Shown here: piece after piece, positions 40,488 through 57,624 of the stretch
Numbering within the stretch: position 1 is the stretch's first letter
How the letters are laid out: each line of letters begins with the position of its first letter
From: Guptibacillus hwajinpoensis
GTDB lineage: Bacteria; Bacillota; Bacilli; Bacillales; Guptibacillaceae
DNA length: 64,000 nt
Reading direction: 5' to 3'
Assembly: GCF_001039475.1 (NCBI RefSeq)
Contig: NZ_LELK01000001.1
Span: 469,466-533,465, forward strand
Made by a program: the position numbers and the translations under genes
Notes under the pieces: generated by a model
Database searches by the model: none
Seen by the model: only the letters and a program-made list of their open reading frames with translations
Told to the model about the DNA's origin: nothing

Positions 40488-40501
40488 AATTACAAGAACA
40501 T

Positions 40502-40515: not shown

Positions 40516-40539
40516 TAGATGCCGGGTTCAAGGAGACGA

Positions 40540-41771: not shown

Positions 41772-42545
41772 ATGAACGTTATGGAATTATTTAATTTATC
41801 AGGTAAGACAGCTATTGTGACAGGTGGGGGAAGAGGTCTCGGCAAGCAAATTGCAGAAGGATTCGCTGAAGCTGGAGCGAACGTTGTTATTTGTTCAAGA
41901 AAATTGGCAGCGTGTGAAGCTGTTCGTGACGAGTTAGAAAGTAAAGGGGTTAGATCACTTGCTTTTGAGTGTGATGTAACAAATCAAGAAGATGTTCAGC
42001 ATGTAGTTGATGAAACTATGAAAGAATTTGGTCAGATTGATATTCTTGTGAATAACAGTGGCGCGTCTTGGGGAGCACCTGTCGTTGAAATGCCTCTACA
42101 GGCATGGCATAAAGTAATGGAAGTAAACGTAACGGGTACATTCCTTTTCGCACAAGCAGCTGGGAAAGAAATGATTAAGCAGAACAGCGGTAAAATCATT
42201 AATATAGCTTCAGTCGCAGGACTTGGTGGAGCTGATCCACGTTACATGGATGCAATCGGCTATAACACGAGTAAAGGAGCTGTCATTACATTTACGAAAG
42301 ATCTTGCTGTGAAGTGGGGAGGATATAACATTAACGTAAATGCGATTGCACCTGGTTTCTTCCCAACGAAAATGTCAAAAGGATTAATTGATGCGGGTGG
42401 AGAGAAAATGCTAGAAACGACTCCTCTGAATCGTTTTGGTTCGGATGATGATTTAAAAGGAGCTGCATTATTCCTAGCTTCAAATGCGTCCAATTATGTA
42501 ACAGGAGATATTCTAATTGTTGATGGTGGTCAACATGCAATGTAA
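41772..42545 (+). CDS. Short-chain dehydrogenase/reductase (SDR), FabG-like
   Basis: 257 residues. NAD(P) motif T-G-G-G-R-G-L-G (about 18-25), N-N-S-G in place of the usual N-N-A-G, catalytic Ser in I-A-S-V-A and Y-N-T-S-K (Tyr/Lys) near residue 158. Oxidises or reduces a hydroxy/oxo group of an acyl-CoA or free acid; substrate not readable. 17 nt behind the ACAD11-type gene, in the same operon. Confidence 0.85.
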   Translation: MNVMELFNLSGKTAIVTGGGRGLGKQIAEGFAEAGANVVICSRKLAACEAVRDELESKGVRSLAFECDVTNQEDVQHVVDETMKEFGQIDILVNNSGASWGAPVVEMPLQAWHKVMEVNVTGTFLFAQAAGKEMIKQNSGKIINIASVAGLGGADPRYMDAIGYNTSKGAVITFTKDLAVKWGGYNINVNAIAPGFFPTKMSKGLIDAGGEKMLETTPLNRFGSDDDLKGAALFLASNASNYVTGDILIVDGGQHAM

Positions 42546-42566: not shown

Positions 42567-43736
42567 ATGAATCGTGATCCAGTCATTGTTTCGGCAGTAC
42601 GTACGCCTATTGGAAGACAAGGTGGAGCTTTTGCAAGCATACCAGCACATGTACTCGGCGCAATAGCTCTTAAGGAAGCAGTAAGCAGAATTAACTTAGA
42701 AATGGATACCATTGACGATGTAATCTTTGGTAATGTCATTAGCGGCGGCGGAAATATAGCAAGGTTAACAGCCCTTGAGGCAGGTCTTCCGCTAACAATT
42801 CCAGGATTAACTATTGATCGACAGTGCGGTTCAGGATTAAATGCTATTAATCTAGCTGCACAGGCTATCAAAGCGGGTGATGGTGATGTTTATGTGGTAG
42901 GTGGCGCTGAGAGTATGAGTCAGGCACCATACTTAATGGAGAAGCCAACTAAGCCTTATAGTACAATGCCACCACGCTTTATGAAATCTAGACTCTCACC
43001 AGATGAAATAGGTGATCCTCCAATGGGCATTACTGCTGAAAATCTGGCTGAGAAGTATCAGATCACACGTGAAGAACAAGATGAGTTTGCACATCGCAGT
43101 CAAGTACGCATGGGACAAGCGATGGCGGAAGGCTATTTTGACTCTCAGATTGCATCCGTTAGTGTACCTGTTCGTAAAGGGGATCCTATCGTCGTTTCGA
43201 AGGATGAACATCCTAGACCAGAAACTACGCTCGATAAATTAGCAAAGCTACCTTCAGTATTCAAGAGAGATGGAACCGTTACGGCAGGCTCTAGCTCTGG
43301 TTTGAATGATGCTGCTTCAGCAGTCATTGTTATGTCTCGTGAGAGAGCAGAAGACCTTGGCCTAAAGCCACTTGCAGTAATAAAAGCGTATGCTGTTAGT
43401 GGTGTTGACCCTAATATTATGGGAATCGGACCAGTACCTGCAACCCAGAAAGTGATGGAACAAGCAGGATTATCATTAGAAGATATGGATTTGATTGAAG
43501 TTAACGAAGCTTTTGCTGCACAGGTGCTCGCATGCGACCGTGAATTGAATATGAACTCTGAGAAATTAAATGTGAATGGTGGAGCTATCGCTCACGGCCA
43601 TCCATTAGGAGCAACAGGAGCGATTCTTGCAACAAAAGCAATTTATGAACTTGATCGAAGAGAAGGGAGATATGCGCTCGTTACTGCTTGTATTGGTGGG
43701 GGACAAGGAATTGCTACAATTCTAGAGCGAGTTTAA
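42567..43736 (+). CDS. Acetyl-CoA C-acyltransferase (thiolase)
   Basis: 389 residues. Active-site Cys in D-R-Q-C-G-S-G (about residue 90), His in G-G-A-I-A-H-G-H-P-L-G-A-T-G (about 346) and the second Cys in C-I-G-G-G-Q-G (near 376) are all present. It cleaves 3-oxoacyl-CoA with CoA to acetyl-CoA (or propionyl-CoA) and a shortened acyl-CoA. Coupled closely to the SDR upstream (21 nt) and the next SDR (10 nt). Confidence 0.92.
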   Translation: MNRDPVIVSAVRTPIGRQGGAFASIPAHVLGAIALKEAVSRINLEMDTIDDVIFGNVISGGGNIARLTALEAGLPLTIPGLTIDRQCGSGLNAINLAAQAIKAGDGDVYVVGGAESMSQAPYLMEKPTKPYSTMPPRFMKSRLSPDEIGDPPMGITAENLAEKYQITREEQDEFAHRSQVRMGQAMAEGYFDSQIASVSVPVRKGDPIVVSKDEHPRPETTLDKLAKLPSVFKRDGTVTAGSSSGLNDAASAVIVMSRERAEDLGLKPLAVIKAYAVSGVDPNIMGIGPVPATQKVMEQAGLSLEDMDLIEVNEAFAAQVLACDRELNMNSEKLNVNGGAIAHGHPLGATGAILATKAIYELDRREGRYALVTACIGGGQGIATILERV

Positions 43737-43746
43737 GGAGGTACTG

Positions 43747-44499
43747 ATGAGACTTCAAGATAAAGTAGCTATTGTTACTGGAGGTGGAGGAGGTATCGGT
43801 CGAGCAACTGCTCTTCGTTTTGCAAGCGAAGGGGCTAAGGTGGTCGTCTCCGATATCCATTCCGAGTCGGGTGAGGAATCTGTCGATCAAATTACAAAAA
43901 TGGGAGGAGAAGCCATTTTTGTAAGAACTGACACGTCAATTGAAGGAGATATGAAAGCGCTTGTAGAAGAATGTGAAAAGCGGTACGGTGGTCTCGACAT
44001 CTTTTTCAATAACGCCGGAGTGAGTAATGAAGAAGTAAAGTTAGTGGATATATCGGTAGACGAGTGGGATCGTGTGGTTTCAATAAACTTAAAAGGCGTA
44101 TTTATGGGAATGAAGTATGCTATCCCGGCTATGGAAAAGAGAAGTGGCGGAGCTATCGTAAATACATCAAGTCTGCTTGGATTTAAAGGAAAGAAGTATA
44201 TGGCTCCTTATAACGCATCAAAAGGTGGGGTTATAACGCTTACCAAAAACGCTGCACTTGAGTATGGAGGGAAAAACATTCGTGTGAACGCTGTTTGCCC
44301 TGGTGTAATTGACACGAATATTGTTACACCATGGAAAGAGGACGATCGCAAATGGCCCATCATCTCAAAAGCGAATGCACTTAGAAGAGTTGGACAACCA
44401 GAGGAAATCGCAAATGCTGTCCTGTTCCTAGTCTCTGATGAAGCATCCTATGTCACAGGAACAAGCCTTCTCGTTGATGGCGGAGGTTTAACGTTTTAA
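43747..44499 (+). CDS. Short-chain dehydrogenase/reductase
   Basis: 250 residues: T-G-G-G-G-G-I-G-R-A-T-A, N-N-A-G-V, Ser in N-T-S-S-L-L, catalytic Y-N-A-S-K, and C-P-G-V-I-D-T. Canonical classical SDR. D-I-H at the end of strand 2 places an acidic residue there, which favours NAD over NADP. Third enzyme of the operon after ACAD11-type and thiolase. Confidence 0.85.
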   Translation: MRLQDKVAIVTGGGGGIGRATALRFASEGAKVVVSDIHSESGEESVDQITKMGGEAIFVRTDTSIEGDMKALVEECEKRYGGLDIFFNNAGVSNEEVKLVDISVDEWDRVVSINLKGVFMGMKYAIPAMEKRSGGAIVNTSSLLGFKGKKYMAPYNASKGGVITLTKNAALEYGGKNIRVNAVCPGVIDTNIVTPWKEDDRKWPIISKANALRRVGQPEEIANAVLFLVSDEASYVTGTSLLVDGGGLTF

Positions 44500-44517: not shown

Positions 44518-46134
44518 ATGAACGCAAAAAATAGTTGGTTCAAGCATTATCCTGATTCGATAGCCACTACTATTGATATCCCTAACGTTTCACTCCCTGA
44601 CATGTTAAATCAAACAGTTAAAAATTATCCTGACAATGTTGCTCTTTCTTTCTATCATAAGAAGATAACCTATCGTGAGTTGGGCTATCTTTCTACAGCA
44701 TTCGGCTCTGCGCTACAAAACACCTTTCAAATGAAGCCAAAAGATCGTGTTGCCCTAATGCTCCCAAACTGCCCTCAATTTTCAATGAGTTATTATGGTG
44801 TATTAAAAGCAGGCGGAATTATTACTCAAATAAATCCAATGCTAGTTGAACGTGAATTACAATACATATTGGCTGACTCTGGAGCAGAAACCATTGTCAT
44901 TTATGATGCCCTCTATCCAAGATTGAAAGCTATACAAGATGAAACGAATGTCAAAAATGTAATTGTAGTATCTTTACAACCTGACGCTGGTCCTGTTGAT
45001 CCTGATTATACTTTCGACCAATTTATTCAGAGTACTACTGAATCGCTACAATCCGTGTCAATCGATCCTAAAGAAGATATAGCAGTACTTCAATATACTG
45101 GAGGTACAACTGGAAGAAGCAAAGGTGCTATGCTAACTCATCGTAATTTAGTAGCTAATATAGAGCAGTGTCTAGAATTTTTTAAAGATGAGTTTACTTT
45201 TGGCAAGGAAAAATGTTTGACTGTTATTCCCTTATTTCATGTATTTGGAATGACGTCTTGTATGAATTTGTCAATTCGAATCGGTGCTGAAAGTGTCTTG
45301 CTACCAAAATTTGATGTAAATGAAGTACTAGAAACAATTGAAAAAGAACAGCCAACGTTATTCCCGGGAGTGCCCACAATGTATGTTGCACTAACCAATT
45401 ATCCTAATGCTGAAAACTTCGACCTCTCTAGTATTCGAACATGTAATAGTGGAAGTGCACCAATGCCTGTAGGATTAATGAAAGAATTCGAGAGAAAAAC
45501 AGGCGCTAAGATTTTAGAAGGATATGGTTTAAGCGAGGCTGCGCCAACTACGCACGTTAATCCGCCATTTGGAGAACGGAAGCCCGGAAGTGTTGGCATA
45601 GGTTTTCCATCTACCGAATACAAGATTGTCGATCTTGGAGAGGGGAAGACGGAACTTAAAGCTGGTGAATCAGGAGAGATTATCATCAAAGGTCCTCAGG
45701 TAATGAAAGGATATTGGAACATGCCGGAGGAGACTGCAAATACGCTTCGCGACGGGTGGTTATTTACTGGAGACATAGCAAAGATGGATGAAGATGGCTA
45801 TATTTCTATCATTGATCGTAAAAAGGATCTAATTATAGCTAGTGGTTATAACATCTATCCTCGTGATATAGAAGAAGTTCTATATGAACACACGAGTATT
45901 ATGGAAGCTGTTGTTGTTGGTGTGCCAGATCCATACCGGGGTGAGACGGTGAAGGCGGTTATCGTGACAAAACCTGGTGTTACACTATCAGAAGAAGAAG
46001 TAATTTCTTACTGCAAAGATCAGATGGCCCCATATAAAGTTCCAAAAATGGTTGAGTTTCGTCATGAACTTCCAAAGACAAGCGTTGGAAAAATTTTAAG
46101 AAGATCAATAAGAGAAGAAGCACGCCAAGTATAG
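44518..46134 (+). CDS. Long-chain-type acyl-CoA ligase (AMP-forming)
   Basis: 538 residues. Y-T-G-G-T-T-G-R-S-K-G-A (phosphate loop), G-Y-G-L-S-E-A-A-P, G-W-L-F-T-G-D-I-A, D-R-K-K-D-L-I-I-A-S-G-Y-N and P-K-T-S-V-G-K-I-L-R-R with the catalytic Lys. Activates the carboxylate entering the pathway. The N-terminus W-F-K-H-Y-P resembles the opening of FadD-type LcfA/YhfL proteins. Last gene of the 40540 operon; it may also feed other substrates. Confidence 0.9.
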   Translation: MNAKNSWFKHYPDSIATTIDIPNVSLPDMLNQTVKNYPDNVALSFYHKKITYRELGYLSTAFGSALQNTFQMKPKDRVALMLPNCPQFSMSYYGVLKAGGIITQINPMLVERELQYILADSGAETIVIYDALYPRLKAIQDETNVKNVIVVSLQPDAGPVDPDYTFDQFIQSTTESLQSVSIDPKEDIAVLQYTGGTTGRSKGAMLTHRNLVANIEQCLEFFKDEFTFGKEKCLTVIPLFHVFGMTSCMNLSIRIGAESVLLPKFDVNEVLETIEKEQPTLFPGVPTMYVALTNYPNAENFDLSSIRTCNSGSAPMPVGLMKEFERKTGAKILEGYGLSEAAPTTHVNPPFGERKPGSVGIGFPSTEYKIVDLGEGKTELKAGESGEIIIKGPQVMKGYWNMPEETANTLRDGWLFTGDIAKMDEDGYISIIDRKKDLIIASGYNIYPRDIEEVLYEHTSIMEAVVVGVPDPYRGETVKAVIVTKPGVTLSEEEVISYCKDQMAPYKVPKMVEFRHELPKTSVGKILRRSIREEARQV

Positions 46135-46206: not shown

Positions 46207-46776
46207 ATGAAACACAAGCTAACTGTAAAGAGCATTGAACTATTTGAGAAAAAAGGATTTAGTGAAACATCGATACAAGATATCGTGGACGCTATTGGTG
46301 TTACGAAGGGTACGTTCTATTACTATTTTAAGAGTAAAGAAGAATTATTAATGGATATCCATTCTTCTTATATCGACGGAATGATCAAACAGCAAAAAGA
46401 AATTCTGGAGGATACGTCGAAAGATTGCAGAACAAAGCTATATGATATGGTATACATGCTTATTCATAATGTAGAGCTTGAGGGCAATAGCGCACGCGTT
46501 TTTTTCCGTGAAATGAAGAATTTGAAAGAAGAGAACTTATCTGAAATACTACCGAAACGGGATCAAATTCGATATTATTTTCAAGATCTGTTGAAACAGG
46601 GTGTTGAAAATGGAGAATTCCGGAGCAATCTTAATATTGGAATTGTTACTTTTGCCATTCTCGGAATTACGAATTGGACGTATCAATGGTATCAACCAGA
46701 CGGACCTGTTTCTGATAAAGAGGTAGCGAGTATTTTTGTAGATATGGTTCTAAGTGGGATTGAGGAAAGCAGCTAA
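46207..46776 (+). CDS. TetR/AcrR-family transcriptional regulator
   Basis: 189 residues. The helix-turn-helix S-I-Q-D-I-V-D-A-I-G-V-T-K-G-T-F-Y-Y-Y-F-K-S-K-E-E-L-L (about 24-50) is canonical, and the C-terminal helices likely bind an acyl-CoA or similar ligand. Its placement between the two catabolic operons makes it the obvious local repressor. Whether it binds the AACCGGTT boxes is not proven, because its own promoter carries a different dyad. Not the same arrangement as B. subtilis fadR (ysiA). Confidence 0.9.
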   Translation: MKHKLTVKSIELFEKKGFSETSIQDIVDAIGVTKGTFYYYFKSKEELLMDIHSSYIDGMIKQQKEILEDTSKDCRTKLYDMVYMLIHNVELEGNSARVFFREMKNLKEENLSEILPKRDQIRYYFQDLLKQGVENGEFRSNLNIGIVTFAILGITNWTYQWYQPDGPVSDKEVASIFVDMVLSGIEESS

Positions 46777-46853: not shown

Positions 46854-47738
46854 ATGAAAAGCAAAGATATTAAGAACATTTCAGTACTAGGGGCAGGCTC
46901 AATGGGGCATCAAATTGGCATGCTTTGTGCGCTCGGAGGGTATGAAACGACTATTCAAGATATTAATGAAGCAGCTTTGACAGATGCTGGTGAGAAACTT
47001 GAAGGCATTATGACAAAGTGGGTTAAGAAAGGGAAAATCACTGAAGAAATGAAAAATGGTGCATTCAGTCGATTACGTTATACAACTAACCTTGAAGAAG
47101 CGGCTGTTCAAGCGGATTTTATTATAGAAGCGATTGTGGAGAAGCTCGATGCTAAACGTGAAGTGTTTCAGAAACTAGATGAATTAGCAGCTCCTGATGT
47201 GATCTTTGCTTCAAATAGTTCAACCATTGTTAATTCATTAATTGCTTCTGTTACAAGTCGTAAAGATAAAGTGGTGAACATGCATTTCTTCTTCCCGCCT
47301 CTCGTAATGGATTGTGTAGAGGTTGTAATGAGTGACGAAACATCAGAAGAAACGGCCAAAATGACCATGGATGTTTGTGAACGAATTAATCGCACAGGAG
47401 TGCTGTTGAAAAAGGAAATTTCCGGATTTGTTGCAAATCGTATTCTAGGAGCACTTCAAAAAGAAGCTATGTACCTTTATGAAGAAGGGATAGCAGACTT
47501 TAAAGATATTGACTTAATTTGTAGAAAAGCTCTAAATCACCCAATAGGTCCATTTGAATTAATGGATTTATCAGGAATCGATGTTGGTTACTATGTGATG
47601 CAGCAACGTTACAATGAAACCGGTAATCCTGAAGATAAACCTTCTAAAGCGATTGAAGAGAAAGTGAAAGCAGGAACACTTGGACGGAAAACAGGTAAGG
47701 GCTGGTATGACTATACAAAAGAAGGAGTGAAGAACTAA
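46854..47738 (+). CDS. 3-hydroxyacyl-CoA dehydrogenase (HBDH type)
   Basis: 294 residues, single-function length. NAD motif V-L-G-A-G-S-M-G-H-Q-I (about 12-22), the acyl-CoA pocket N-S-S-T-I and P-P-L-V-M-D-C-V-E-V-V, and the dimer domain N-H-P-I-G-P-F-E-L-M-D. The canonical catalytic His lies in H-F-F-x-P. Oxidises 3-hydroxyacyl-CoA to 3-oxoacyl-CoA. First gene of the second operon; its stop TAA overlaps the next ATG by 1 nt. Confidence 0.9.
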   Translation: MKSKDIKNISVLGAGSMGHQIGMLCALGGYETTIQDINEAALTDAGEKLEGIMTKWVKKGKITEEMKNGAFSRLRYTTNLEEAAVQADFIIEAIVEKLDAKREVFQKLDELAAPDVIFASNSSTIVNSLIASVTSRKDKVVNMHFFFPPLVMDCVEVVMSDETSEETAKMTMDVCERINRTGVLLKKEISGFVANRILGALQKEAMYLYEEGIADFKDIDLICRKALNHPIGPFELMDLSGIDVGYYVMQQRYNETGNPEDKPSKAIEEKVKAGTLGRKTGKGWYDYTKEGVKN

Positions 47739-48514
47739 TGAAAAAAGTAACGTATGAAATTCATGAAAAAACAGCAATCGTTACAATTAATAATCCACCA
47801 TTGAACGTGTTAAGCAAACAGGTCACAACTGAATTATATGAAGTGTTCACTGAGTTAGAAACGAATGAAGAGACTGTTGCTGTGATTCTAACAGGAGCTG
47901 GTAATAAAGCTTTCATGGCAGGCGCCGATATTAAAGAATTCCCTGAATGGATTGGGAAGACTGGATTCAAAGACATTGTGCTGGAAACACATCGCGTCAT
48001 GAATTACCTTGATGATTTCCCAAAACCTACGATTGCGGTGTTAAATGGTTTAACGTTTGGGGGAGGATGTGAGCTTGCGATGACATGCGACATACGTATT
48101 GCAGAAGAGCATGCCCAACTCGGTCTTCCGGAAGTTAAACTTGGACTTTTCCCTGGTGGTGGAGGAACACAACGTCTTCCTAGACTTATTGGAGAAGCGA
48201 GAGCGAAAGAATTGATGTTTACTGGCGAACCGATTACAGCAGAAGAGGCGGATCGTTATGGTCTAGTCAATCATGTTGTACCCACAGGTCAAGGCATGAC
48301 TTATGCACAAGGAATGGCGGCTAAAGTAACTGGTCAATCTCTGCAGGCATTATCTCGCATTAAACAAGCTGTTAACAAAGGTGCACACCTATCAATTGAA
48401 GAGGCTGTTGAACTGGAAGCAGAATTGTTTAATGAGGTTTTTCAAACGGAGGATATTAAAGAAGGCGTTCAAGCATTCATCGAGAAAAGGAAGCCAGCCT
48501 TTACCCATAGGTAA
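47738..48514 (+). CDS. Enoyl-CoA hydratase/isomerase family protein
   Basis: 258 residues of the crotonase fold. Oxyanion segments F-M-A-G-A-D-I-K-E-F and G-G-G-C-E-L-A-M-T-C-D-I-R-I, and the Glu-containing loop L-P-E-V-K-L-G-L-F-P-G-G-G-G-T. Both catalytic Glu positions appear filled, supporting true hydratase activity. Overlaps the preceding gene by 1 nt, so it is translated with it. Confidence 0.88.
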   Translation: MKKVTYEIHEKTAIVTINNPPLNVLSKQVTTELYEVFTELETNEETVAVILTGAGNKAFMAGADIKEFPEWIGKTGFKDIVLETHRVMNYLDDFPKPTIAVLNGLTFGGGCELAMTCDIRIAEEHAQLGLPEVKLGLFPGGGGTQRLPRLIGEARAKELMFTGEPITAEEADRYGLVNHVVPTGQGMTYAQGMAAKVTGQSLQALSRIKQAVNKGAHLSIEEAVELEAELFNEVFQTEDIKEGVQAFIEKRKPAFTHR

Positions 48515-48532: not shown

Positions 48533-48940
48533 ATGAGTGAAAATATAGATGTGCGAGTAAGGTTTTGCGAAACCGATGCACTTGGACATGTTAATAATAC
48601 AAGCTACTTCATTTATTTAGAAGAAGCACGGGTGCAGTTTTTCGAGTATCTAGGTAAACGATCAGGTACAGACGATTGGCCTTTTATCCTTGTTTCGACG
48701 AAGTGTGATTTTATTAAGCAAGTATATTTTAAACAAGAACTTCGCATTGAAACATCAGTTAAGAAGATTGGTTCAAAGAGCTTCACATTACTTCACTTGA
48801 TTAAAGACTCTAAATCGAATGATATTGTAGCGGAAGGTGAAGCAACCGTTGTTTACTTTGACTTCACGAAACAGACGAGTGAAATCATTCCAGATGAATT
48901 ACGAATAAGGCTCGAGGAATCTCATCAGTTACTTACCTAG
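48533..48940 (+). CDS. Hotdog-fold acyl-CoA thioesterase (YbgC/4-hydroxybenzoyl-CoA type)
   Basis: 135 residues. R-V-R-F-C-E-T-D-A-L-G-H-V-N-N (catalytic Asp in E-T-D) and E-E-A-R-V-Q-F-F are hallmarks of the family. It hydrolyses acyl-CoA thioesters, perhaps to release CoA from stalled intermediates. Placed between hydratase and kinase genes in the second operon. Confidence 0.85.
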   Translation: MSENIDVRVRFCETDALGHVNNTSYFIYLEEARVQFFEYLGKRSGTDDWPFILVSTKCDFIKQVYFKQELRIETSVKKIGSKSFTLLHLIKDSKSNDIVAEGEATVVYFDFTKQTSEIIPDELRIRLEESHQLLT

Positions 48941-48998: not shown

Positions 48999-50063
48999 AT
49001 GTCTTATTCACACGATACGATTCCTGTCCGCGATGGGGAAGAGCTAGATCAACAAAAGCTTGAAAGCTTTATTAGAGATAATATTGATCAATTAAGTGAT
49101 GATCCACTTTTGATTCAACAATTTAACACCGGTCGTTCGAATTTAACATACCAGCTTTCAATTGGTGATTGGGAAGCGGTACTGAGAAGGCCACCTCTTG
49201 GCCCACTGGCCCCAAAAGCGCATGATATGGAGCGGGAGTATACCATTTTGAAGGAACTACATCCAATTTTCCCACTTGCTCCTAAGCCATATTTTTATAA
49301 TGAGACCTTATTAGGTGCGCCATTCTTCCTTATGGAAAGAAGAAGAGGAATTGTACTTGATACATCTTTCCCTGATGGGTTTCAGCCAACGGAATCGATT
49401 TGTAGGAACATCTCTGAAACAATGGTAGACACTCTTGTAGAGCTACATAGCCTTAACTATGAAGCTACTAAATTGGGTGAAATAAGTCATCCGGATGGGT
49501 TTATGGAACGCCAGGTACATGGGTGGATTAAACGTTATCATCGATCAAAAACAGATGATATCTCAGGTGTTGATGAGCTAACAAATTGGATGGTTTCGAA
49601 TATCCCTGAATCACAGAGTCCTACTGTTATTCACTACGATTTTAAGTTAAACAATGCTATGTTTGCTCACGATGATTACAGCAAAATAGTGGGATTGTTT
49701 GATTGGGAAATGACAACGGTAGGAGATCCTCTCGCAGACCTGGGTGCTGCAATGGGCTATTGGATTCAACAAGATGATCCAGCACTACTTAAAAGTGGAA
49801 TTGGATCACCTCCGGTTACCGTCATGAAAGGTTTTATGACTAGAGATGAGTTTATTGAATCTTATGCTCGCAAATCCGGTCGAGATGTTTCGCAGATGAA
49901 TTACTATTTAACGTTTGCATACTTCAAACTCGCTGTTATTTGTCAGCAAATCTATTATCGATGGAAAATGGGACAAACAACAGACGAACGTTTTCGTGAT
50001 CTGAACAAATTTGTTGCTAGTTTAATTGCTCATGCTAGGAACAACGCCAGAGTAAAACGTTAG
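48999..50063 (+). CDS. APH-family acyl-CoA-linked phosphotransferase (ACAD10/11 N-domain / LvaA-like)
   Basis: 354 residues. Catalytic loop H-Y-D-F-K-L-N-N-A-M-F (about 211-221; Asp and Asn present) and metal motif D-W-E-M-T-T-V-G-D-P-L-A-D-L-G (about 233-247) are those of the aminoglycoside-phosphotransferase group fused to ACAD in ACAD10/11, here a separate gene. LvaA of Pseudomonas putida phosphorylates the 4-OH of 4-hydroxyvaleryl-CoA. Combined with the ACAD11-type gene at 40540, this supports 4-hydroxyacyl-CoA metabolism. No lvaB-like gene is obvious. Confidence 0.87.
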   Translation: MSYSHDTIPVRDGEELDQQKLESFIRDNIDQLSDDPLLIQQFNTGRSNLTYQLSIGDWEAVLRRPPLGPLAPKAHDMEREYTILKELHPIFPLAPKPYFYNETLLGAPFFLMERRRGIVLDTSFPDGFQPTESICRNISETMVDTLVELHSLNYEATKLGEISHPDGFMERQVHGWIKRYHRSKTDDISGVDELTNWMVSNIPESQSPTVIHYDFKLNNAMFAHDDYSKIVGLFDWEMTTVGDPLADLGAAMGYWIQQDDPALLKSGIGSPPVTVMKGFMTRDEFIESYARKSGRDVSQMNYYLTFAYFKLAVICQQIYYRWKMGQTTDERFRDLNKFVASLIAHARNNARVKR

Positions 50064-50071
50064 GAGTTCAT

Positions 50072-50827
50072 ATGGGAAAAGTACACGTGCTTATGAAAAA
50101 GGAAGATATTGATCAGGATAAGATAGGAAATGACAAAATTGTAGTCGTGTTGGACGTGCTTTTGGCAACATCTACAATCACCTCAGCTCTTGAATTTGGT
50201 GCAAAACAAGTTATTCCAGTACTCGATCAACACGATGCTTTAGCGGAAGCGAAAGCATTACCTGATGGCAGTTACTTGCTTTCTGGTGAATATGAAGGGA
50301 AGACAATTGAAGGATTTCTTGACCCAAACCCACTGCAATTAAAGAAAGCAGTGAAAGGTAAAACGTTAATTCTATCAACTACGAACGGTACCGTAGCCAT
50401 CAAACGGTCAAGTGATGCGAAGCGAGTATACGTTGCTTCTCTATTAAACGGACGAGCTATTGCAAAAAAACTCAATCATTTCCATCAGGATGAAACAATA
50501 GTCGTAGTTTGTTCCGGATCATCTGGTGAATTTGCTCTCGAAGATTTTTATGGAGCTGGTTATTTAATAAATCAACTCCTTTCAACATGCCCTGATTGGG
50601 AGCTTACTGATGCTGCCCGTGCTGCTTCTTCATTTTATAGAGGCAGCGAAAAGAGTGGAGAAGAGGTTTTGATTTCTTCTCGTGTAGGAGAAATGATTAA
50701 GCGCTATGGGTATGAAGATGAAGTGAGGTTTGTAGCTTCTGAAGGTATATTTACAATCGTACCTTTCGTACAAGGGAAAAAAACGATTATACGGGAGGAG
50801 GTCCATCATGACGCAAATCAAGTCTAG
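50072..50827 (+). CDS. ComB-family (2-phosphosulfolactate phosphatase-like) protein
   Basis: 251 residues of the ComB fold: V-V-L-D-V-L-L-A-T-S-T-I (usual D-V-L-R-A-T), L-S-G-E-Y-E-G-K-T-I-E-G-F, L-S-T-T-N-G-T-V-A-I and C-S-G-S-S-G-E-F-A-L-E-D. The family hydrolyses 2-phospho-3-sulfolactate in coenzyme M synthesis, which Bacillaceae do not make. Arg-to-Leu in the first motif and the altered G-F-L-D-P-N-P segment argue for another phosphate ester. It lies 8 nt after the kinase and its end overlaps the next start by 20 nt, so the three are co-expressed. Confidence 0.8.
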   Translation: MGKVHVLMKKEDIDQDKIGNDKIVVVLDVLLATSTITSALEFGAKQVIPVLDQHDALAEAKALPDGSYLLSGEYEGKTIEGFLDPNPLQLKKAVKGKTLILSTTNGTVAIKRSSDAKRVYVASLLNGRAIAKKLNHFHQDETIVVVCSGSSGEFALEDFYGAGYLINQLLSTCPDWELTDAARAASSFYRGSEKSGEEVLISSRVGEMIKRYGYEDEVRFVASEGIFTIVPFVQGKKTIIREEVHHDANQV

Positions 50828-52547
50828 TCGAACTGGTTCAGAATTTCTTTATCGACAATCAACTCCAGATGACATTTTCACTCCAGAGGAGTTTACAGAT
50901 GAACATCGGATGATCGCAAAAACGGCACACCAATTTGTTGAGAAAGACGTTGATCCTTATAGGGAAGCGATCGAAAATCAAGACTTCAATCGTGTCGTTG
51001 CATTACTTAAGAAAGCAGGTCAACTCGGACTGCTTGGGCATAGCATCCCAGAAGAATATGGTGGAATTGCACTAGATAAAATTTCTAAGTGTGTTGTAGG
51101 AGAGGTTGTCGGAAAAACAAGCGGGTATGGAGTTGCACAATCTAATCATACGTGTATCGCTACGTTACCAATAACCCATTTTGGTACGCACGAGCAGAAG
51201 AGTAAGTATTTGCCGAAACTCGCTTCAGGAGAATATCTTGGCGCTTATTGCTTAACAGAACCTAGTGCAGGATCTGATGCGTTAGCGTCGCAAACAACAG
51301 CAGTACTCAATGAAGAAGGTACTCACTATCTTCTGAATGGAACGAAACTATATATAACCAATGCAGTGTTCTCAGATACGTTTATTGTATATGCCAAAAT
51401 TAATGGAAATCAGTTTTCGGCATTCATCGTAGAGCGAAATTTTCCAGGGCTTACACTTGGACCTGAAGAAAAAAAGATGGGAATAAAAGGTTCATCCACT
51501 AGATCGGTCATTTTGGAAGATTGTCAGGTTCCAATTGAAAATCTGTTAGGTGATGCTGGAAAGGGACACGTTATTGCACTGAATGTGTTGAATTTAGGAC
51601 GATTTAATCTTGGCTCAGCATGTACGGGTGGAGCAAAGCATGGTATGAAATTAGCACTTCAGCATACGAATGGACGCAAGCAATTTGGGCGCACTATTGC
51701 TGAATTTACAGCTACCCAAGAAAAAGTAGCACGAATGATGGCAAGAGTTTATGCATCTGAATCCCTTCAATACAGGACGGCTTTCTTGTTAGAAGGAGCC
51801 ATGGATGGGTTGTACAAAGAAACTGATCATAAAATTGTTGGCAATCAAATGATGGAATATGCTGTAGAATGTGCAATTTGCAAAGTGTTTGGTTCTGAAA
51901 CACTCGATCAAGTTGTAGATGAATCTCTTCAGTTACATGGCGGGGCTGGATTTATACAAGAATATCCGATTGAGCAAATGTATCGTGATTCAAGAATCAA
52001 CCGTATTTTTGAAGGTACAAATGAAGTGAATCGTTTGTTAATTGTGGGAACGCTCTTTAAGAAAGTAAGTAAGGGAGACATTTCGCTTGAAGAGTTAGTT
52101 GAAAAAGCAAGACGAAAGCTAACAGAAACAGTAAGTGTTTCAACAAATGAAGAAGATGCGATTCAGAGCATTCGAAACGTTTTCCTCTTTTGTGTAGGAA
52201 CGGCATTTCAGCAACATGGTGAGCGTTTGATGGATAATCAGGAATCACTTATGAAGCTTTCAAACATTGCCATTGCATTATATGCAGCTGAATCCGCTGT
52301 TCTACGTGCACTGAAACATCAGGGTGAACTAAAAATGAAGCTAGCAAGAACATTTTTAGAAGAAACTCTTCTAGATGTTGAATCATCAGCTCGTATGTTG
52401 CTAATGAGTATCCTACCGAGAGAGCAAAAGCAGCAAGCCGTACAACTGGTTTTCAATAACCTATCGTCTTTCGATTTCGGAAGCTCGCTCGAACGAAATC
52501 GAGAAATAGCACAATCCAGCTATAAAAAACTGAAGTATGACGTCTAG
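50808..52547 (+). CDS. Acyl-CoA dehydrogenase (FadE-like, long form)
   Basis: 579 residues. C-L-T-E-P-S-A-G-S-D-A (flavin loop), G-T-K-L-Y-I-T-N-A, R-K-Q-F-G-R-T-I, L-H-G-G-A-G-F and the catalytic Glu in I-F-E-G-T-N-E-V-N (about residue 401). The roughly 170-residue C-terminal extension is like VLCAD/FadE proteins. Unlike the enzyme at 40540 it retains the standard base, so it should do ordinary alpha,beta-dehydrogenation. Starts inside the ComB-like gene. Confidence 0.88.
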   Translation: MTQIKSSRTGSEFLYRQSTPDDIFTPEEFTDEHRMIAKTAHQFVEKDVDPYREAIENQDFNRVVALLKKAGQLGLLGHSIPEEYGGIALDKISKCVVGEVVGKTSGYGVAQSNHTCIATLPITHFGTHEQKSKYLPKLASGEYLGAYCLTEPSAGSDALASQTTAVLNEEGTHYLLNGTKLYITNAVFSDTFIVYAKINGNQFSAFIVERNFPGLTLGPEEKKMGIKGSSTRSVILEDCQVPIENLLGDAGKGHVIALNVLNLGRFNLGSACTGGAKHGMKLALQHTNGRKQFGRTIAEFTATQEKVARMMARVYASESLQYRTAFLLEGAMDGLYKETDHKIVGNQMMEYAVECAICKVFGSETLDQVVDESLQLHGGAGFIQEYPIEQMYRDSRINRIFEGTNEVNRLLIVGTLFKKVSKGDISLEELVEKARRKLTETVSVSTNEEDAIQSIRNVFLFCVGTAFQQHGERLMDNQESLMKLSNIAIALYAAESAVLRALKHQGELKMKLARTFLEETLLDVESSARMLLMSILPREQKQQAVQLVFNNLSSFDFGSSLERNREIAQSSYKKLKYDV

Positions 52548-52562
52548 AAAGTGGTGGATAAG

Positions 52563-53330
52563 ATGGCGAGATTTACAGGACGAACCGCTGTTGTGACAGG
52601 TGGTGGTAGCGGAATAGGTGCGAAGACTGCAAAACGAATCGTTTCTGAAGGTGGGACTGTCATACTTGTTGGACGCACAGAAGAGAAATTGAAACGTACA
52701 GCAAATGACCTTAAAGATTTAGAAGGCACAGTGTTAACTTTTGTAGCTGACGTAACCAAGCAAGAGGATATTGATTTGCTGACTTCCTTTATTAAAGAAA
52801 AAACAGGAACGCTTCATATTTTAATAAATAATGCTGGGGGTTCGCAAGGTTCACCAATTCTTGAAATGTCTGAAGAAAATTGGGATCATGCGCAGGATGT
52901 AAATTTAAAAAGCGTATTCCTCGTATCCAAAGCACTGGGGAAATTGATGTTGGATACATCTAAGGAAAACCATCTAGAAGATTATGCAATTGTTAATGTG
53001 GCTTCATTATCAGGACATAAAGCAGGTGCGCAAATTCCTCATTACAGTGCTGCGAAGGCAGCGGTTATTAATTTTACAAGAGCACTAGCAGTGGAATTAT
53101 CTCCACACATTCGTGTAAATTCCGTTTCCCCTGGGTTTGTGGAAACACCTTTAACAGAAGCTGGACTAAAAAATGAACGATTTGAAGCTTCGATCAAACG
53201 GAATACTGCTTTAAATCGAGTTGGACAGCCTAATGAAATTGCTAATGTAATAGCTTTTGCTGCTTCAGCAGAAGCAAGTTATATGACTGGATCAGATTTA
53301 TTAGTAGACGGTGGCTGGCTCATCGTATAA
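52563..53330 (+). CDS. Short-chain dehydrogenase/reductase
   Basis: 255 residues: T-G-G-G-S-G-I-G (about 11-18), N-N-A-G-G, Ser in V-A-S-L-S, Y-S-A-A-K, and S-P-G-F-V-E-T-P. Third SDR of the island. ATG 52563 is preferred (GTGGTGG 5 nt before); GTGs at 52551/52554 are in frame. Could reduce a 4-oxo to a 4-hydroxy group, as proposed for levulinate, but this is inference. Confidence 0.82.
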   Translation: MARFTGRTAVVTGGGSGIGAKTAKRIVSEGGTVILVGRTEEKLKRTANDLKDLEGTVLTFVADVTKQEDIDLLTSFIKEKTGTLHILINNAGGSQGSPILEMSEENWDHAQDVNLKSVFLVSKALGKLMLDTSKENHLEDYAIVNVASLSGHKAGAQIPHYSAAKAAVINFTRALAVELSPHIRVNSVSPGFVETPLTEAGLKNERFEASIKRNTALNRVGQPNEIANVIAFAASAEASYMTGSDLLVDGGWLIV

Positions 53331-53349
53331 AAAAGGAGAGTGTTTTGTA

Positions 53350-54141
53350 ATGGAAACAACAGTAAAAACAGATCATCTTAAAGTAAATGTTCAGGGTGCC
53401 GTGCTTCATCTTACTTTAAACCGTCCTGAGGCACTAAACGCGTTTAGTCCAGATATGATTTTAGGACTTACAAGAGCAATTCAGGATGCAAAAGAAAATG
53501 ATGATATCCGTGTAGTAATGCTTTCTGGAGCAGGTCGATCTTTCAGTGCTGGCGGGGATGTTAAGACGATGGGAGACACTTCTTCGACTGAAGTATATGA
53601 ACATATCGGGAAATTAAATGAGCTTGTTCTAGCCATGAAAGATCTTGATAAGCCGATTATTTCAGTCATTCATGGATTTGCTGCAGGGGCTGGTTTTAAC
53701 TTAGCACTCGCGAGCGATATTATTTTGGCAGCTGAAGATAGTAGTTTTGTCTTAAGTTTCTCTCAAGTAGGATTAATATCTGATGGTGGAGGACTTTCTT
53801 TCTTGCCAAGACTAATCGGTCCATACAAAGCAAAAGAATTATTTTTCTCAGCACAGCCAATCACTGCAAAAGAAGCAAAAGAATTAAGAATCGTTAATCA
53901 AACTTATCCACTATCAGAGTTACAAGATGAAGCAATTGCTTACGCTGACAAACTTGCAAGAGGGCCAGGTAAAGCATTTGGTTTTATAAAGAAAATTGCA
54001 GATGCATCTCTAACGTCATCATTACCTGAAGTTTTAGAGCAGGAACGAATTACACAGGCACTAATGGTAACGACAGAAGACCATAAAGAAGGTGCTACTG
54101 CCTTTAAAGAAAAACGCGCTCCTCAATTCAAAGGCAAATAA
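53350..54141 (+). CDS. Enoyl-CoA hydratase/isomerase family protein
   Basis: 263 residues. L-N-R-P-E-A-L-N-A-F, F-S-A-G-G-D-V-K-T-M and G-F-A-A-G-A-G-F-N-L-A-L-A-S-D-I-I give the oxyanion hole. The usual first Glu region A-G-A-G-F-N has no Glu, and the second site reads S-Q-V-G-L-I-S-D-G-G: a PaaG-like isomerase or other crotonase activity is more likely than hydration. AAAGGAG precedes ATG 53350 by 11 nt; an ATG at 53311 lies inside the upstream gene. Confidence 0.84.
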   Translation: METTVKTDHLKVNVQGAVLHLTLNRPEALNAFSPDMILGLTRAIQDAKENDDIRVVMLSGAGRSFSAGGDVKTMGDTSSTEVYEHIGKLNELVLAMKDLDKPIISVIHGFAAGAGFNLALASDIILAAEDSSFVLSFSQVGLISDGGGLSFLPRLIGPYKAKELFFSAQPITAKEAKELRIVNQTYPLSELQDEAIAYADKLARGPGKAFGFIKKIADASLTSSLPEVLEQERITQALMVTTEDHKEGATAFKEKRAPQFKGK

Positions 54142-54262: not shown

Positions 54263-55126
54263 ATGGAGCTTCTTTTCCAGCAGATTTTTAACGGACTTAC
54301 AATTGGAAGCGTTTACACTCTTGTGGCACTTGGCTTAACACTCGTTTTCGGTATTCTTCACGTCCCTAACTTTGCTCATGGTGCATTTTACATGGTTGGT
54401 GCTTATATTACGTTAATGATGATGGTAGGGTTTGGCTTCAATTATTGGGTAGCCATTATCGCTTCTGTAGCGGTCGTTGCATTACTTGGTGTTGTTACTC
54501 AACAGCTTATCTTTAAGAAATTAGAAGGTGCAGATGGAATGAGGATGATGGTTGCTGCCATCGGAATCCTCTTATTCTTGGAAGCATTTGGTCAGTTTAT
54601 GTGGGGAACGGAGTATTACAGAATGGATACACCGTACAGTTCTGTAGTGAATTTGTTCGGGTTAACCGTCACTTTGCAGAGACTTTTAATTATTATTGCA
54701 GCGATTATTTTAATGCTAGCTCTTCACTTTTTCTTAACGAAAACGATGATAGGAGCCGCAATTATTGCAATGGCTCAAAACCGTGAAGGAGCATTTCTTG
54801 TAGGAATTAATGCAAATCAGGTAGCGTGGTTAACATTTGCGATTGCTGGGGGACTTGCTGCAGCAGCAGCTTCTCTTGCATCTCCTATCAATCTAGTGTT
54901 TCCTACAATGGGAAATCTTGTTATTATGAAAGCCTTTGTCATTATTATTATTGGCGGTATGGGTAGTATTCCAGGCGCAATCATTGGAGGGTATTTGCTT
55001 GGTTTAACGGAAAGCATTGGTGCGACGTACATATCGTCTGATTATAAAGATGTCATCGCGTTTCTCCTCCTCGTCGTCATTTTGACAGCGAAACCGACCG
55101 GGCTATTCACGAAGGGGGTTCAATAA
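54263..55126 (+). CDS. livH: Branched-chain-type ABC permease, LivH family
   Basis: 287 residues with about eight transmembrane segments. N-G-L-T-I-G-S-V-Y-T-L-V-A-L-G-L-T-L-V-F-G at the start and G-G-M-G-S-I-P-G-A-I-I-G-G (EAA-like loop contacting the ATPases) are typical LivH signatures. AAGGAGG precedes the ATG. First of five importer genes with overlapping ends. Confidence 0.9.
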   Translation: MELLFQQIFNGLTIGSVYTLVALGLTLVFGILHVPNFAHGAFYMVGAYITLMMMVGFGFNYWVAIIASVAVVALLGVVTQQLIFKKLEGADGMRMMVAAIGILLFLEAFGQFMWGTEYYRMDTPYSSVVNLFGLTVTLQRLLIIIAAIILMLALHFFLTKTMIGAAIIAMAQNREGAFLVGINANQVAWLTFAIAGGLAAAAASLASPINLVFPTMGNLVIMKAFVIIIIGGMGSIPGAIIGGYLLGLTESIGATYISSDYKDVIAFLLLVVILTAKPTGLFTKGVQ

Positions 55127-56133
55127 TGCCGAACGTTCTTTCGAAGCGAACTATGATGATCATGTTAACAGCTGTCGCCATTCTTTTTCCGCTCGTTTTT
55201 AAAAATATGTATCTTCTCCAATTGTTAACTCTCGTGTTTATCTGGTCGATTGCGGTCTATGGTTTTAATATTATCTCTGGGTATGTAGGGTACCTCTCCC
55301 TTGCACATGCTGGATTCTTTGCAATTGGAGCCTATGGGGTCGGTCTATTAACAACGAAAGCAGAGCTGCCGTATTGGATTTCGTTATTCCTTGCAGTCAT
55401 TATTACTGCTCTAGCTGGTGCTCTGGTCGGAGTTATTGCATTAAGAACAAAATCTCACTTTTTTGCGATTTATACGATGTGTGTTGGAGTAATAATTTAC
55501 CTTCTCATCGACAAATGGGACAGCCTCACAGGTGGGGTTAGAGGTTTAATTGGGATCTCCCCACCTGGTAATATCGGACCGATTACCTTTGATTCGTTAA
55601 CATCTCAGTATTATCTCGCACTGTCATTCCTCATCCTTACTATTTTTATTTGTTATCGCATTGTTCATTCTTTACTTGGAAGAACATTTATTGCGATTCG
55701 AAATAGTGAGGAACTTGCTAAAACAATTGGTATATCTATTATGAAAAATCAGCTACTTGCATTTACGCTGTCAGCATTATTCGCTGGGTTATCTGGGGCA
55801 TTATACGCTTCATTCATTCGTTTCATAGGACCACAGATTTCAGCGATTACGGTTACATTTGAAATGCTCATGTATCTTCTTGTCGGTGGGATCGGAACAC
55901 TTGCTGGGCCTTTAGTTGGCACATTAATTGTTATTTCCTTAACTCAGTCACTTCAATTTCTAGAAGAATATCGGATGCTTATTTTCGGACCAGTCGTTGT
56001 CCTTCTGGTTCTATACTACCCACGTGGAATTACAGGAAGTATAGAGACGTTTATCCGAAAAAGAAAGCTACAGAAAGTCAACTTGCGTAAAGAAGAACAT
56101 GAAGTCAAACGGGATGTAGGGGAGGCTGGTTAA
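55126..56133 (+). CDS. livM: Branched-chain-type ABC permease, LivM family
   Basis: 335 residues. N-I-I-S-G-Y-V-G-Y-L-S-L-A-H-A-G-F-F-A-I-G-A-Y and G-G-I-G-T-L-A-G-P-L-V-G-T (EAA-like loop) identify LivM. Starts at the A of the livH stop codon (TAATG), and its own stop overlaps livG in the same way. A basic C-terminal tail of about 35 residues is cytoplasmic. Confidence 0.9.
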   Translation: MPNVLSKRTMMIMLTAVAILFPLVFKNMYLLQLLTLVFIWSIAVYGFNIISGYVGYLSLAHAGFFAIGAYGVGLLTTKAELPYWISLFLAVIITALAGALVGVIALRTKSHFFAIYTMCVGVIIYLLIDKWDSLTGGVRGLIGISPPGNIGPITFDSLTSQYYLALSFLILTIFICYRIVHSLLGRTFIAIRNSEELAKTIGISIMKNQLLAFTLSALFAGLSGALYASFIRFIGPQISAITVTFEMLMYLLVGGIGTLAGPLVGTLIVISLTQSLQFLEEYRMLIFGPVVVLLVLYYPRGITGSIETFIRKRKLQKVNLRKEEHEVKRDVGEAG

Positions 56134-56912
56134 TGTTCTTTAGAACAGAGGGAATTACAAAACGATTTGGTGGTCTCGCTGCTGTAGAAGATGTAAGCGC
56201 TTCTTTTGAAAAAGGATCAATAACAGCCATTATCGGTCCTAATGGAGCTGGAAAATCTACTTTTTTCAACCTAATCAGTGGAATTCATCCTATTACGTCT
56301 GGAAAAGTCTTTTTTAAAGATAACGATATTACGAAAATGCCACCTCAACAGATCGCTAGACTAGGCATTGGTCGAACATTTCAAACGACAAACCTATTTG
56401 AACAATCTACTGTCCTGGATAACGTATTAATAGGCCATAGACTTCGCACTAAATCGGGAATATGGGACGCGATTTTTAGAACGGCAAGAGAAAAGGAGGA
56501 AGAGAAACGATCTTATGAAAAAGCGATGCAGGCCCTAGCGTTCGTCGAGCTAGAAAACGTTGTAGAGCACCCCGTGTCTCTTATTTCTCAGGAAGAGAAG
56601 AAGAGATTAGCCTTTGCACTCGCATTAGCAACGGATCCTGAGATGGTTCTTCTTGATGAACCAGCAGCTGGTGTCAATCCTGATGAAACAGATGGTCTAG
56701 CGTACTTGATGAGAAAAATGGCAGATCACGGAATTACCGTTTGCCTCATCGAACATAAAATGCCAATGATTATGAGTCTAGCAGATAAAATAGTCGTATT
56801 AAATCATGGAAAGAAAATTGCGGAAGGTCGACCAGACGAAATAAGGCAAAATGAAGCTGTAATCCAAGCCTATCTAGGAGGCGAAGTTCATGCTCCAGTT
56901 AAACAATATTAA
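56133..56912 (+). CDS. livG: ABC transporter ATPase, LivG family, with degenerate signature loop
   Basis: 259 residues. Walker A G-P-N-G-A-G-K-S-T and Walker B V-L-L-D-E-P-A-A-G-V-N-P are intact, and the LivG-specific C-terminal E-H-K-M-P-M-I-M is present. The signature loop, which in LivG is normally a ...Y-G-Q-Q-R-R sequence, reads S-Q-E-E-K-K-R here, so the ATP-contacting Gly is absent. One of the two nucleotide sites in the LivG/LivF pair may therefore be weak. Confidence 0.88.
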   Translation: MFFRTEGITKRFGGLAAVEDVSASFEKGSITAIIGPNGAGKSTFFNLISGIHPITSGKVFFKDNDITKMPPQQIARLGIGRTFQTTNLFEQSTVLDNVLIGHRLRTKSGIWDAIFRTAREKEEEKRSYEKAMQALAFVELENVVEHPVSLISQEEKKRLAFALALATDPEMVLLDEPAAGVNPDETDGLAYLMRKMADHGITVCLIEHKMPMIMSLADKIVVLNHGKKIAEGRPDEIRQNEAVIQAYLGGEVHAPVKQY

Positions 56913-57597
56913 CGTAAAGTACGGGGCATCTCAGGTGCTTCACAATATTCGCCTTCATGTTAATCAAGGGGAAACAGTCGTCCTTCTTGGAGCTAATGGA
57001 GCAGGTAAAAGTACGATTTTCCGTACAATAAGTGGACTTATGAAGCCCGCTTCAGGAGAGATCATGTTTATGGATCGCAAGCTTACGGGGAAATCTCCAC
57101 ACTCACTAGTTAAAGAAGGAATAGTTCAATGCCCTGAAGGAAGAAAGCTATTTCCTCATATGTCCGTCTATGAAAATTTGAAAATGGGCAGCTTTGTTCA
57201 TCGAAAGCAACGTAAGGAAGTCGAGAAACGTTTAAAGGAAGTGTATTCACTCTTTCCTATTCTTTATGATAAACGACATGAAGCAGCTGGGTCGTTAAGT
57301 GGAGGCCAGCAACAAATGCTTGCGATTGGACGAGCACTTATGGCGAATCCGAAAGTCCTTCTTCTTGATGAACCTTCACTTGGTCTAGCTCCCCTAATTG
57401 TTGAGCAAATGTTCAACATTATTGAAGATATTAATCAGCAGGGAACTACGATTCTTCTAGCTGAGCAAAATGCAAATGCAGCTCTTCAAATTTCTAACCG
57501 TGGTTACGTAATTGAAAGTGGCAAAATAGTTCTAGAAGGAAGTAAAGAAGAACTTTTATCTAATGATGAGATCCGTAAAGCCTATATTGGAGCATAA
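56890..57597 (+). CDS. livF: ABC transporter ATPase, LivF family
   Basis: 235 residues. Walker A G-A-N-G-A-G-K-S-T, canonical signature L-S-G-G-Q-Q-Q-M and Walker B V-L-L-L-D-E-P-S-L-G-L-A-P are all normal. Starts 23 nt inside livG with AGGAGG just before. Partner of LivG. Confidence 0.9.
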   Translation: MLQLNNINVKYGASQVLHNIRLHVNQGETVVLLGANGAGKSTIFRTISGLMKPASGEIMFMDRKLTGKSPHSLVKEGIVQCPEGRKLFPHMSVYENLKMGSFVHRKQRKEVEKRLKEVYSLFPILYDKRHEAAGSLSGGQQQMLAIGRALMANPKVLLLDEPSLGLAPLIVEQMFNIIEDINQQGTTILLAEQNANAALQISNRGYVIESGKIVLEGSKEELLSNDEIRKAYIGA

Positions 57598-57624
57598 AAT
57601 GAGTCTATTTGAACAGGGGGATAA

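Follow-up and report, generated by a model that had tools for sequence, protein, structure and literature searches.

The window analyzed here is a 64,000-nucleotide stretch of the Guptibacillus hwajinpoensis genome (contig NZ_LELK01000001.1, positions 469,466 to 533,465), and the gene island that it carries at 38912–61556, entirely on the + strand and followed by a terminator-like repeat at 61559–61586, probably serves the inducible breakdown of 4-hydroxy fatty acids and γ-lactones via 4-phosphoacyl-CoA, with a ComB-like protein as phosphatase. We base this proposal on family membership, active-site residues, co-occurrence, adjacency and a shared operator. The range 48999–50827, in which a preliminary description had seen an unfused ACAD10/11-type kinase, does contain that APH-family kinase, and in addition the gene of the ComB-like PF04029 protein (50072–50827), which had been overlooked, as had the operator and a lactonase at the end of the island. 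Unfused kinase–dehydrogenase homologues in bacteria are already in print, as parts of PMC12440821 and PMC11342911 report. Our searches of open-licence papers turned up neither the ComB-like partner, whose fingerprint is the loss of its characteristic arginine, nor an operator shared with the lactonase.

The kinase and its partner dehydrogenase

The kinase is a complete member of the APH family (PF01636, E 1.5e-40), as previously described, and it scores far under the cut-offs of the thiamine kinase (29.7 vs 299.45 bits) and APH(3') (20.7 vs 205 bits) families. Its closest solved structure is 9o56 (E 2e-151, 62% identity), followed by the kinase domain of ACAD11 (2.1e-48, 33%) and by 3dxp (2.7e-44, 31%). 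Viomycin kinase (E 0.0063) and macrolide kinase (0.0097) are distant, and no choline kinase is found among its seven PDB matches; the kinase tree contained none. Of the 79 rows in this tree, 64 were taken from the 136 kinase rows and 11 were other APH-like proteins; the window kinase and three PDB chains made up the rest. Like the dehydrogenase tree, it was drawn without Pseudomonas putida LvaA and LvaC and without ACAD10 sequences. The window kinase falls into a branch (support 93/89) of Bacillota, Deinococcus and planctomycete sequences together with three Actinobacteria rows, of which one is very long-branched; the mouse kinase and most kinases of Proteobacteria form a separate clade (99/99). 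The 11 other APH-like proteins lie outside both branches, with the haloarchaeal kinase L116 weakly among them. Some of the deep forks have weak support, and long branches come together; with these properties of the tree, the window kinase appears to side with the ACAD11 kinase, away from the remaining APH-like proteins. The clustering with antibiotic kinases that would have spoken against the preliminary description is seen neither in the PDB E-values nor in the tree, and on these grounds and by the family cut-offs we rejected an antibiotic-type identity. D214, N219 and R171 of the window kinase align with D220, N225 and the CoA-contacting R176 of ACAD11, whose equivalents are present in 135/136, 136/136 and 136/136 kinase rows, respectively. 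Position 86 of mouse ACAD11, where the CoA contact R86 was expected, is Phe in the numbering used here.

The ACAD11-subtype dehydrogenase, reported before at 40540, was confirmed as well; its open reading frame (ORF) spans 40519–41754 and is separated from the kinase gene by 7.2 kb. Translation may actually begin at 40540 or 40546 and not at 40519, because the operator at 40498–40519 extends to the first ATG. Its best PDB matches are 4hr3, 8v3u, 2wbi and 8v3v (E 9.9e-145 to 1.3e-142), and the next-best acyl-CoA dehydrogenase (ACAD) follows only at 4.6e-48. In ACAD11, R626, H634 and R637 bind the phosphate and D753 is catalytic, according to the portion of PMC12440821 that treats the active site. 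Residues R265, R270, H273, R276 and D392 of the window enzyme correspond to R626, R631, H634, R637 and D753 of mouse ACAD11. R626, R637 and D753 are kept in all 161 relatives with more than 55% identity and H634 in 160 of them; all four are present in 9/9 relatives at 38–55% identity, and the full set occurs in none of 57 other ACADs taken from the loci, where R626 is found once and H634 never. In a tree of 61 chosen rows, 44 ACAD11-like sequences stand apart from 17 others (100/100). The ordinary FadE encoded at 50808 was considered as the dehydrogenase partner of the kinase and rejected: it has V, L, A and E at the sites of R626, H634, R637 and D753.

Both genes travel together. We searched 249 genomes of the order with a strong cut-off of its own for the kinase, 1e-90 for the dehydrogenase, 1e-60 for the lactonase and 1e-20 for the ComB-like protein: Among the matches listed, the kinase occurs in 114 genomes and the dehydrogenase in 111, all of which are kinase genomes, so that 111 genomes have both, three the kinase only and 135 neither. 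In these three (G002, G009, G096), a 42%-identical dehydrogenase under the search cut-off adjoins the kinase. A dehydrogenase lies on the same strand at most 12 kb away in 116 of the 137 kinase rows listed, which include a few fragments, one of them excluded from the genome count. Beyond the order such kinases are rare: six of 348 genomes of a phylum sample match at 1e-60, two of them in-order, and in one of the four out-of-order genomes (G416) a ComB-like gene adjoins the kinase. Two genomes (L106, L107) each carry two different kinase–ACAD11 pairs in a span of 14 kb; the dehydrogenase is 43% identical in one pair and 70% in the other. Because the kinase lies outside the antibiotic kinases and the dehydrogenase keeps the ACAD11 residues, a 4-phosphoacyl-CoA step would be the likeliest chemistry for the pair.

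A ComB-like protein that accompanies the kinase

ComB-like proteins of the kind encoded at 50072–50827 were found at 101 places, fragments included: 83 lie at most 300 bp from a same-strand kinase, 7 more adjoin the dehydrogenase and 11 are located elsewhere. The 90 adjoining genes span 42 genera and 28 families, with a median gap of 29 bp to the neighbour, and compact dehydrogenase–kinase–ComB trios are present in distant relatives (L102, L103, L104, L110). Counted by genome, the protein occurs in 97 of the 249, 95 of which are among the 114 kinase genomes. The G. hwajinpoensis genome (G000) has this single PF04029 protein, and ComA (PF02679) was not found in it; ComA is present in 14 of the 89 genomes with an adjoining copy.

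For comparison, 77 ComB-like ORFs were detected by profile in the loci; four were dropped for length, two of them pieces of a broken copy in G125, and one as identical. The alignment has 75 rows, and its classic set consists of two PDB chains (1vr0, 2yyv) and six copies from ComA regions; four of the ten ComA regions (L228, L229, L233, L234) gave no ComB match to the profile. The arginine of the DxxRA motif is present in 8/8 classic ComBs and absent from 62/62 linked or nearby copies (57 + 5, window included), in which Leu, Phe or Met replaces it; in the window protein it is Leu31. Five orphan copies lack it, too. Other core positions are shared with classic ComB, namely D28, G72–E73, T104–N105–G106 and N126 in 62/62 and D158 in 98%. 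Linked and orphan copies make up one side of a branch with support 98/80, its bootstrap unsettled. The kinase-adjoining copy of G416, a member of another order, reads DVLLAT, and six of six unlinked Bacillota copies, picked from a longer list and including one from a genome with a kinase elsewhere, keep the arginine. Our guess is that this arginine contacts the sulfonate. The annotation "2-phosphosulfolactate phosphatase" may be misleading for this family. The link between ComB and the kinase was not found in the open-licence PMC literature, one query being too broad for a strong test.

Arg-less genes also occur 4–7 kb from the dehydrogenase or kinase in loci of Betaproteobacteria (L160, L169, L182), and a plasmid search for the protein matched three records. 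Remnants were noted at L223:4843-5655, where the copy is broken into two ORFs and the genome lacks a strong kinase, and at L075:7977-8165, as a 63-residue piece near kinase or dehydrogenase.

The main rival to a phosphatase role is that the protein serves as a partner or brake of the kinase, comparable to LvaB or to the HAD domain of ACAD10. The short gene gaps would suit such a role, as would two precedents: for the P. citronellolis cluster, the relevant section of PMC6692424 describes a phosphatase-family gene in place of LvaB, which was not found, and ACAD10's HAD domain holds the kinase back while having almost no phosphatase activity, as stated in part of PMC11342911. We nevertheless consider it unlikely, because the core positions of classic ComB are kept beyond the needs of mere binding.

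An operator shared with the lactonase

A 22-bp palindrome, ACATACTAACCGGTTAGTATGT, precedes the genes of the ACAD11-type dehydrogenase and of a 3-hydroxyacyl-CoA dehydrogenase (HCDH), and a weaker copy precedes the carboxyltransferase gene. A matrix trained on 14 distinct ACAD11 promoter sites detected 104 sites of at least 14 bits in 94 Bacillales loci (1.85 Mb, some overlapping) and two in the reversed sequence. Of 102 distinct sites, 86 lie directly upstream of island-type genes and 16 do not. The former are distributed over ACAD11 (41), HCDH (17), SDR1 (10; SDR, short-chain dehydrogenase/reductase), HBT (8), kinase (3), lactonase (3), LIV1 (2) and two others, the training sites being part of the ACAD11 count and the loci having been selected around island-type genes. 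Patterns with two to three mismatches revealed five places in the G. hwajinpoensis genome: three inside the island, a fourth 43 bp before an ACAD gene that is followed by two genes MaoC-like by look (L254:2471-4544), and a weak fifth on another contig. The operator is probably read by the TetR protein of the island (46207–46776).

Discussions of phosphotriesterase-like lactonases often treat them as enzymes of quorum quenching or pesticide hydrolysis. The island lactonase is 65% identical to GkaP of Geobacillus and keeps the seven active-site residues checked; Tyr99 and the positions that we take to be metal ligands are kept in 22/22 lactonase rows. Tyr99 is the lactonase residue given in PMC4338136. 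All 35 genomes with a lactonase match also have the kinase, which in 19 of them lies on the same strand at most 20 kb away. Among the loci of the 16 remaining genomes, 11 were looked at: The operator directly precedes the lactonase in three (L043, 24.9 bits; L047, 27.5 bits; L046, 19.5 bits) at a distance of 13–76 bp, and in L039 it precedes another gene of the lactonase cluster (17.4 bits). In L042 the lactonase shares 98% identity with GkaP, and the promoter of its ligase 2–lactonase pair carries a weak site of 11.7 bits. Such pairs occur in 4/11 of these loci. We found neither the operator nor the genomic context of the lactonase described in the open-licence PMC literature.

Two further lactone-related arrangements were observed. 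An acidobacterial contig (L192:265-6232) has a lactonase-like gene (33%), a ligase, an SDR and an ACAD11 gene in a row, and a Streptomyces plasmid (L125:4853-13206) has a kinase–ACAD11 pair at most 7 kb from what look like γ-butyrolactone-type signal genes, coding for an AfsA-related protein and for ketoacyl synthases.

Proposed pathway and its alternatives

From these elements we infer the following route, for which levulinate, γ-valerolactone and longer lactones are candidate substrates. The lactonase would open the lactone, and a ligase would form the 4-hydroxyacyl-CoA, which an SDR may also supply from 4-oxoacyl-CoA. The kinase would then phosphorylate the 4-hydroxy group, and the ACAD11-type enzyme would eliminate the phosphate with FAD as internal redox relay to give 2-enoyl-CoA, whose degradation hydratase, HCDH and thiolase would complete. 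The ComB-like protein is predicted to dephosphorylate stalled 4-phospho-acids or 4-phosphoacyl-CoA back to the 4-hydroxy state; with such a dedicated phosphatase, kinase activity would therefore neither trap CoA nor accumulate a dead end. The palindromic operator, probably via the TetR protein, would control the gene set.

The many ordinary β-oxidation genes, the carboxyltransferase and the liv-type importer would also fit a general degradation of branched-chain or terpenoid acyl-CoAs, in which a different hydroxyacyl-CoA would be the substrate of the kinase–ACAD11 pair and the lactonase would serve acyl-homoserine lactones or δ-lactones, the class that GkaP favours in the kinetic part of PMC4338136. 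This is distinctly unlikely, however, as the 4-phospho-binding residues of ACAD11 are kept and as mammalian cells made ACAD10-dependent phospho-acyl-CoA from 4-, not from 5- or 6-hydroxyhexanoate, according to experiments reported in PMC11342911. That the ComB-like gene encodes an ordinary phosphosulfolactate phosphatase located there by chance, for which its PF04029 membership speaks, is highly improbable and was rejected in view of its adjacency in 28 families, its status as the sole PF04029 protein of a genome in which ComA was not found, the rarity of ComA beside adjoining copies and the loss of the diagnostic arginine.

Several observations weigh against the proposed 4-hydroxy-acid and γ-lactone unit. 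The co-occurrence counts are raw numbers without correction for kinship. Single residues of kinase and ACAD discriminate poorly, because many occur in other families: the kinase Asp and Asn are common to 11/11 other APH-like proteins and the R176 equivalent to 4/11, and R637 and D753 are found in 21 and 19 of the 57 other ACADs. The relationship to ACAD10/11 claimed in the preliminary description holds as a placement on the ACAD11 side but not as membership in the animal/Proteobacteria clade, of which the window kinase is a sister branch and not a close orthologue. No LvaB-sized ORF was found beside the kinase among ORFs of at least 80 residues; in P. putida LvaB is required, as stated in part of PMC6692424. 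The ComB-like protein has no match at 1e-20 in 19/114 kinase genomes and is therefore not required; two members of the same genus (G020, G127) keep kinase and ACAD11 and show neither a ComB-like nor a lactonase match, and an Arg-less copy, the one split into two ORFs, occurs in G125, which lacks a strong kinase. The lactonase is restricted to 35/249 genomes, and 6/11 unlinked lactonase loci have no operator of at least 10 bits. Finally, GkaP acts on δ-decalactone with 9.9e5 vs 7.3e4 per M per s on γ-decalactone, in the values given in PMC4338136.

Known systems resemble the island in different respects. Like the Pseudomonas lva operon, as portrayed in parts of PMC6692424 and PMC12440821, it has separate kinase and ACAD genes beside ligase and SDR; unlike it, the island has a TetR regulator instead of the sigma54-type LvaR, adds a ComB-like protein and a lactonase and has no LvaB-sized neighbour. 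This likeness is one of gene content. Eleven Pseudomonas-titled loci contained no kinase by profile (10 kb on each side in ten, shorter in L206) and therefore offer no stand-in for the operon. The levulinate cluster of P. citronellolis LA18T combines homologues of LvaA, LvaC and LvaD with a phosphatase-family neighbour of the LvaA homologue (PMC6692424, in the part on this cluster), but that phosphatase is a histidine phosphatase, unrelated to the ComB-like family. Animal ACAD10 and ACAD11 share the kinase and ACAD domain families and, in the comparison with ACAD11, active-site residues. In animals, however, both domains form one polypeptide, and ACAD10 has a HAD domain where Bacillales have a separate ComB-like protein, judging from sections of PMC11342911. 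While GkaP agrees with the island lactonase in sequence, the latter belongs to a ligase–lactonase pair that ends a 4-hydroxy-acid island. The qsd operon of Rhodococcus erythropolis likewise contains a lactonase, an acyl-CoA ligase and a TetR regulator and assimilates γ-caprolactone; the portion of PMC6476934 that describes it mentions no kinase or ACAD11. Classic ComB (PF04029; 1vr0, 2yyv) has family and core motifs in common with the island protein, whose family, in contrast, lacks the DxxRA arginine, is tied to kinase and ACAD11 and mostly occurs without ComA.

The island would place the ACAD10/11 pathway in Bacillota on regulon-scale evidence, and it suggests testable functions for two possibly misannotated families: the "2-phosphosulfolactate phosphatases" that adjoin kinase or dehydrogenase in 28 families, and the phosphotriesterase-like lactonases.

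Other phosphatase-type partners of the kinase

Among 98 further loci (L111–L208), 66 have a kinase by profile, 59 of these outside Bacillota. A histidine phosphatase adjoins the kinase on the same strand in 15/59, which comprise two Deinococcus, twelve Betaproteobacteria and one planctomycete. In 5/59 the kinase lies at most 1 kb from the sequence end, where neighbours could be missed, and sampling was uneven, one locus search being limited to the 80 best hits of a Cupriavidus-led query. The link is not wholly new: a histidine phosphatase beside the LvaA homologue of the levulinate cluster has been suggested to act on 4-phosphovaleryl-CoA (PMC6692424, in the same part). This neighbour speaks for the proposed phosphatase role, as does free 4-phosphohexanoate, which is present in mammalian cells according to a section of PMC11342911.

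Tentatively, and with somewhat more doubt than belief, we suggest that 4-hydroxyacyl-CoA kinases have repeatedly acquired partners from unrelated phosphatase families that clear or limit 4-phospho-acyl dead ends: Arg-less ComB in Bacillales, histidine phosphatases in Proteobacteria, Deinococcus and a planctomycete, and a fused HAD domain in animal ACAD10. The same tentative reading holds that, since the Bacillales regulon also owns GkaP-type lactonases, their natural job would be γ-lactone catabolism and not quorum quenching. The findings also suggest the build-up of phosphorylated acyl-CoA as a hazard answered independently in several lineages; this would help to explain why ACAD10 has a regulatory HAD domain.

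In two Oxalobacteraceae loci (L158, L173) a histidine phosphatase lies upstream of ACAD11 and no kinase was found by profile. In several Comamonadaceae-type loci (L132, L137, L138, L155, L198 and others) the place before the kinase is taken not by a phosphatase but by a gene whose product starts like 'LTIEEREAINSGRWFSSLSPSLRHDILRCAYV' and is by look a Crp-like regulator.

Gene content of the island

The ligases, SDRs, thiolase, hydratases and importer named in the preliminary description are all present on the + strand (Table 1). SDR1, SDR2, hydratase 1 and the ATPase at 56890–57597 were named from sequence, not by Pfam scan.

Table 1. Genes and sites of the island, with positions in the window.
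Feature	Position	Strand	Basis
Operator-like palindrome before carboxyltransferase, 19.5 bits	38837..38858	.	matrix/pattern search
Carboxyltransferase (propionyl/methylmalonyl-CoA type)	38912..40450	+	domain/family scans
Operator-like palindrome before ACAD11 gene, 24.9 bits	40498..40519	.	matrix/pattern search
ACAD11-type dehydrogenase, predicted 4-phosphoacyl-CoA to 2-enoyl-CoA enzyme	40519..41754	+	PDB matches, ACAD11 residues, clade 100/100
SDR1, candidate 4-oxoacyl-CoA reductase (putative LvaD role)	41772..42545	+	sequence; beside ACAD11 in many loci
Thiolase	42567..43736	+	domain/family scans
SDR2	43747..44499	+	sequence; homologues in loci compared
Acyl-CoA ligase 1	44518..46134	+	domain scan
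TetR-family regulator, candidate operator reader	46207..46776	+	PF00440, PF17932
Operator-like palindrome before HCDH, 24.3 bits	46816..46837	.	matrix/pattern search
HCDH	46854..47738	+	domain scan
Enoyl-CoA hydratase 1	47738..48514	+	sequence; homologues in loci compared
Hotdog thioesterase-like protein	48533..48940	+	named by look of sequence
APH-fold kinase, predicted 4-hydroxyacyl-CoA 4-kinase, ACAD10/11 kinase-domain relative	48999..50063	+	PF01636, 354 aa
ComB-like PF04029 protein, predicted phosphatase partner of kinase (DVLLAT subfamily)	50072..50827	+	PF04029, E 6.7e-65
Ordinary Bacillus FadE acyl-CoA dehydrogenase	50808..52547	+	NF058590 above cut-off
SDR3	52551..53330	+	domain scan
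Enoyl-CoA hydratase 2	53311..54141	+	domain scan
Liv-type ABC importer: two permeases, two ATPases, lipoprotein-like binding protein	54263..58863	+	domain scan; ATPase 56890-57597 named from sequence
Acyl-CoA ligase 2, one base from lactonase	58886..60556	+	domain scan
Phosphotriesterase-like lactonase, 65% identical to GkaP	60558..61556	+	PF02126
Terminator-like inverted repeat after lactonase	61559..61586	+	sequence

The carboxyltransferase has its own operator-like site, yet no biotin carboxylase was seen among the island ORFs. A relative of the hotdog protein with 58% identity is annotated as 'thioesterase family protein' in Cytobacillus spongiae.

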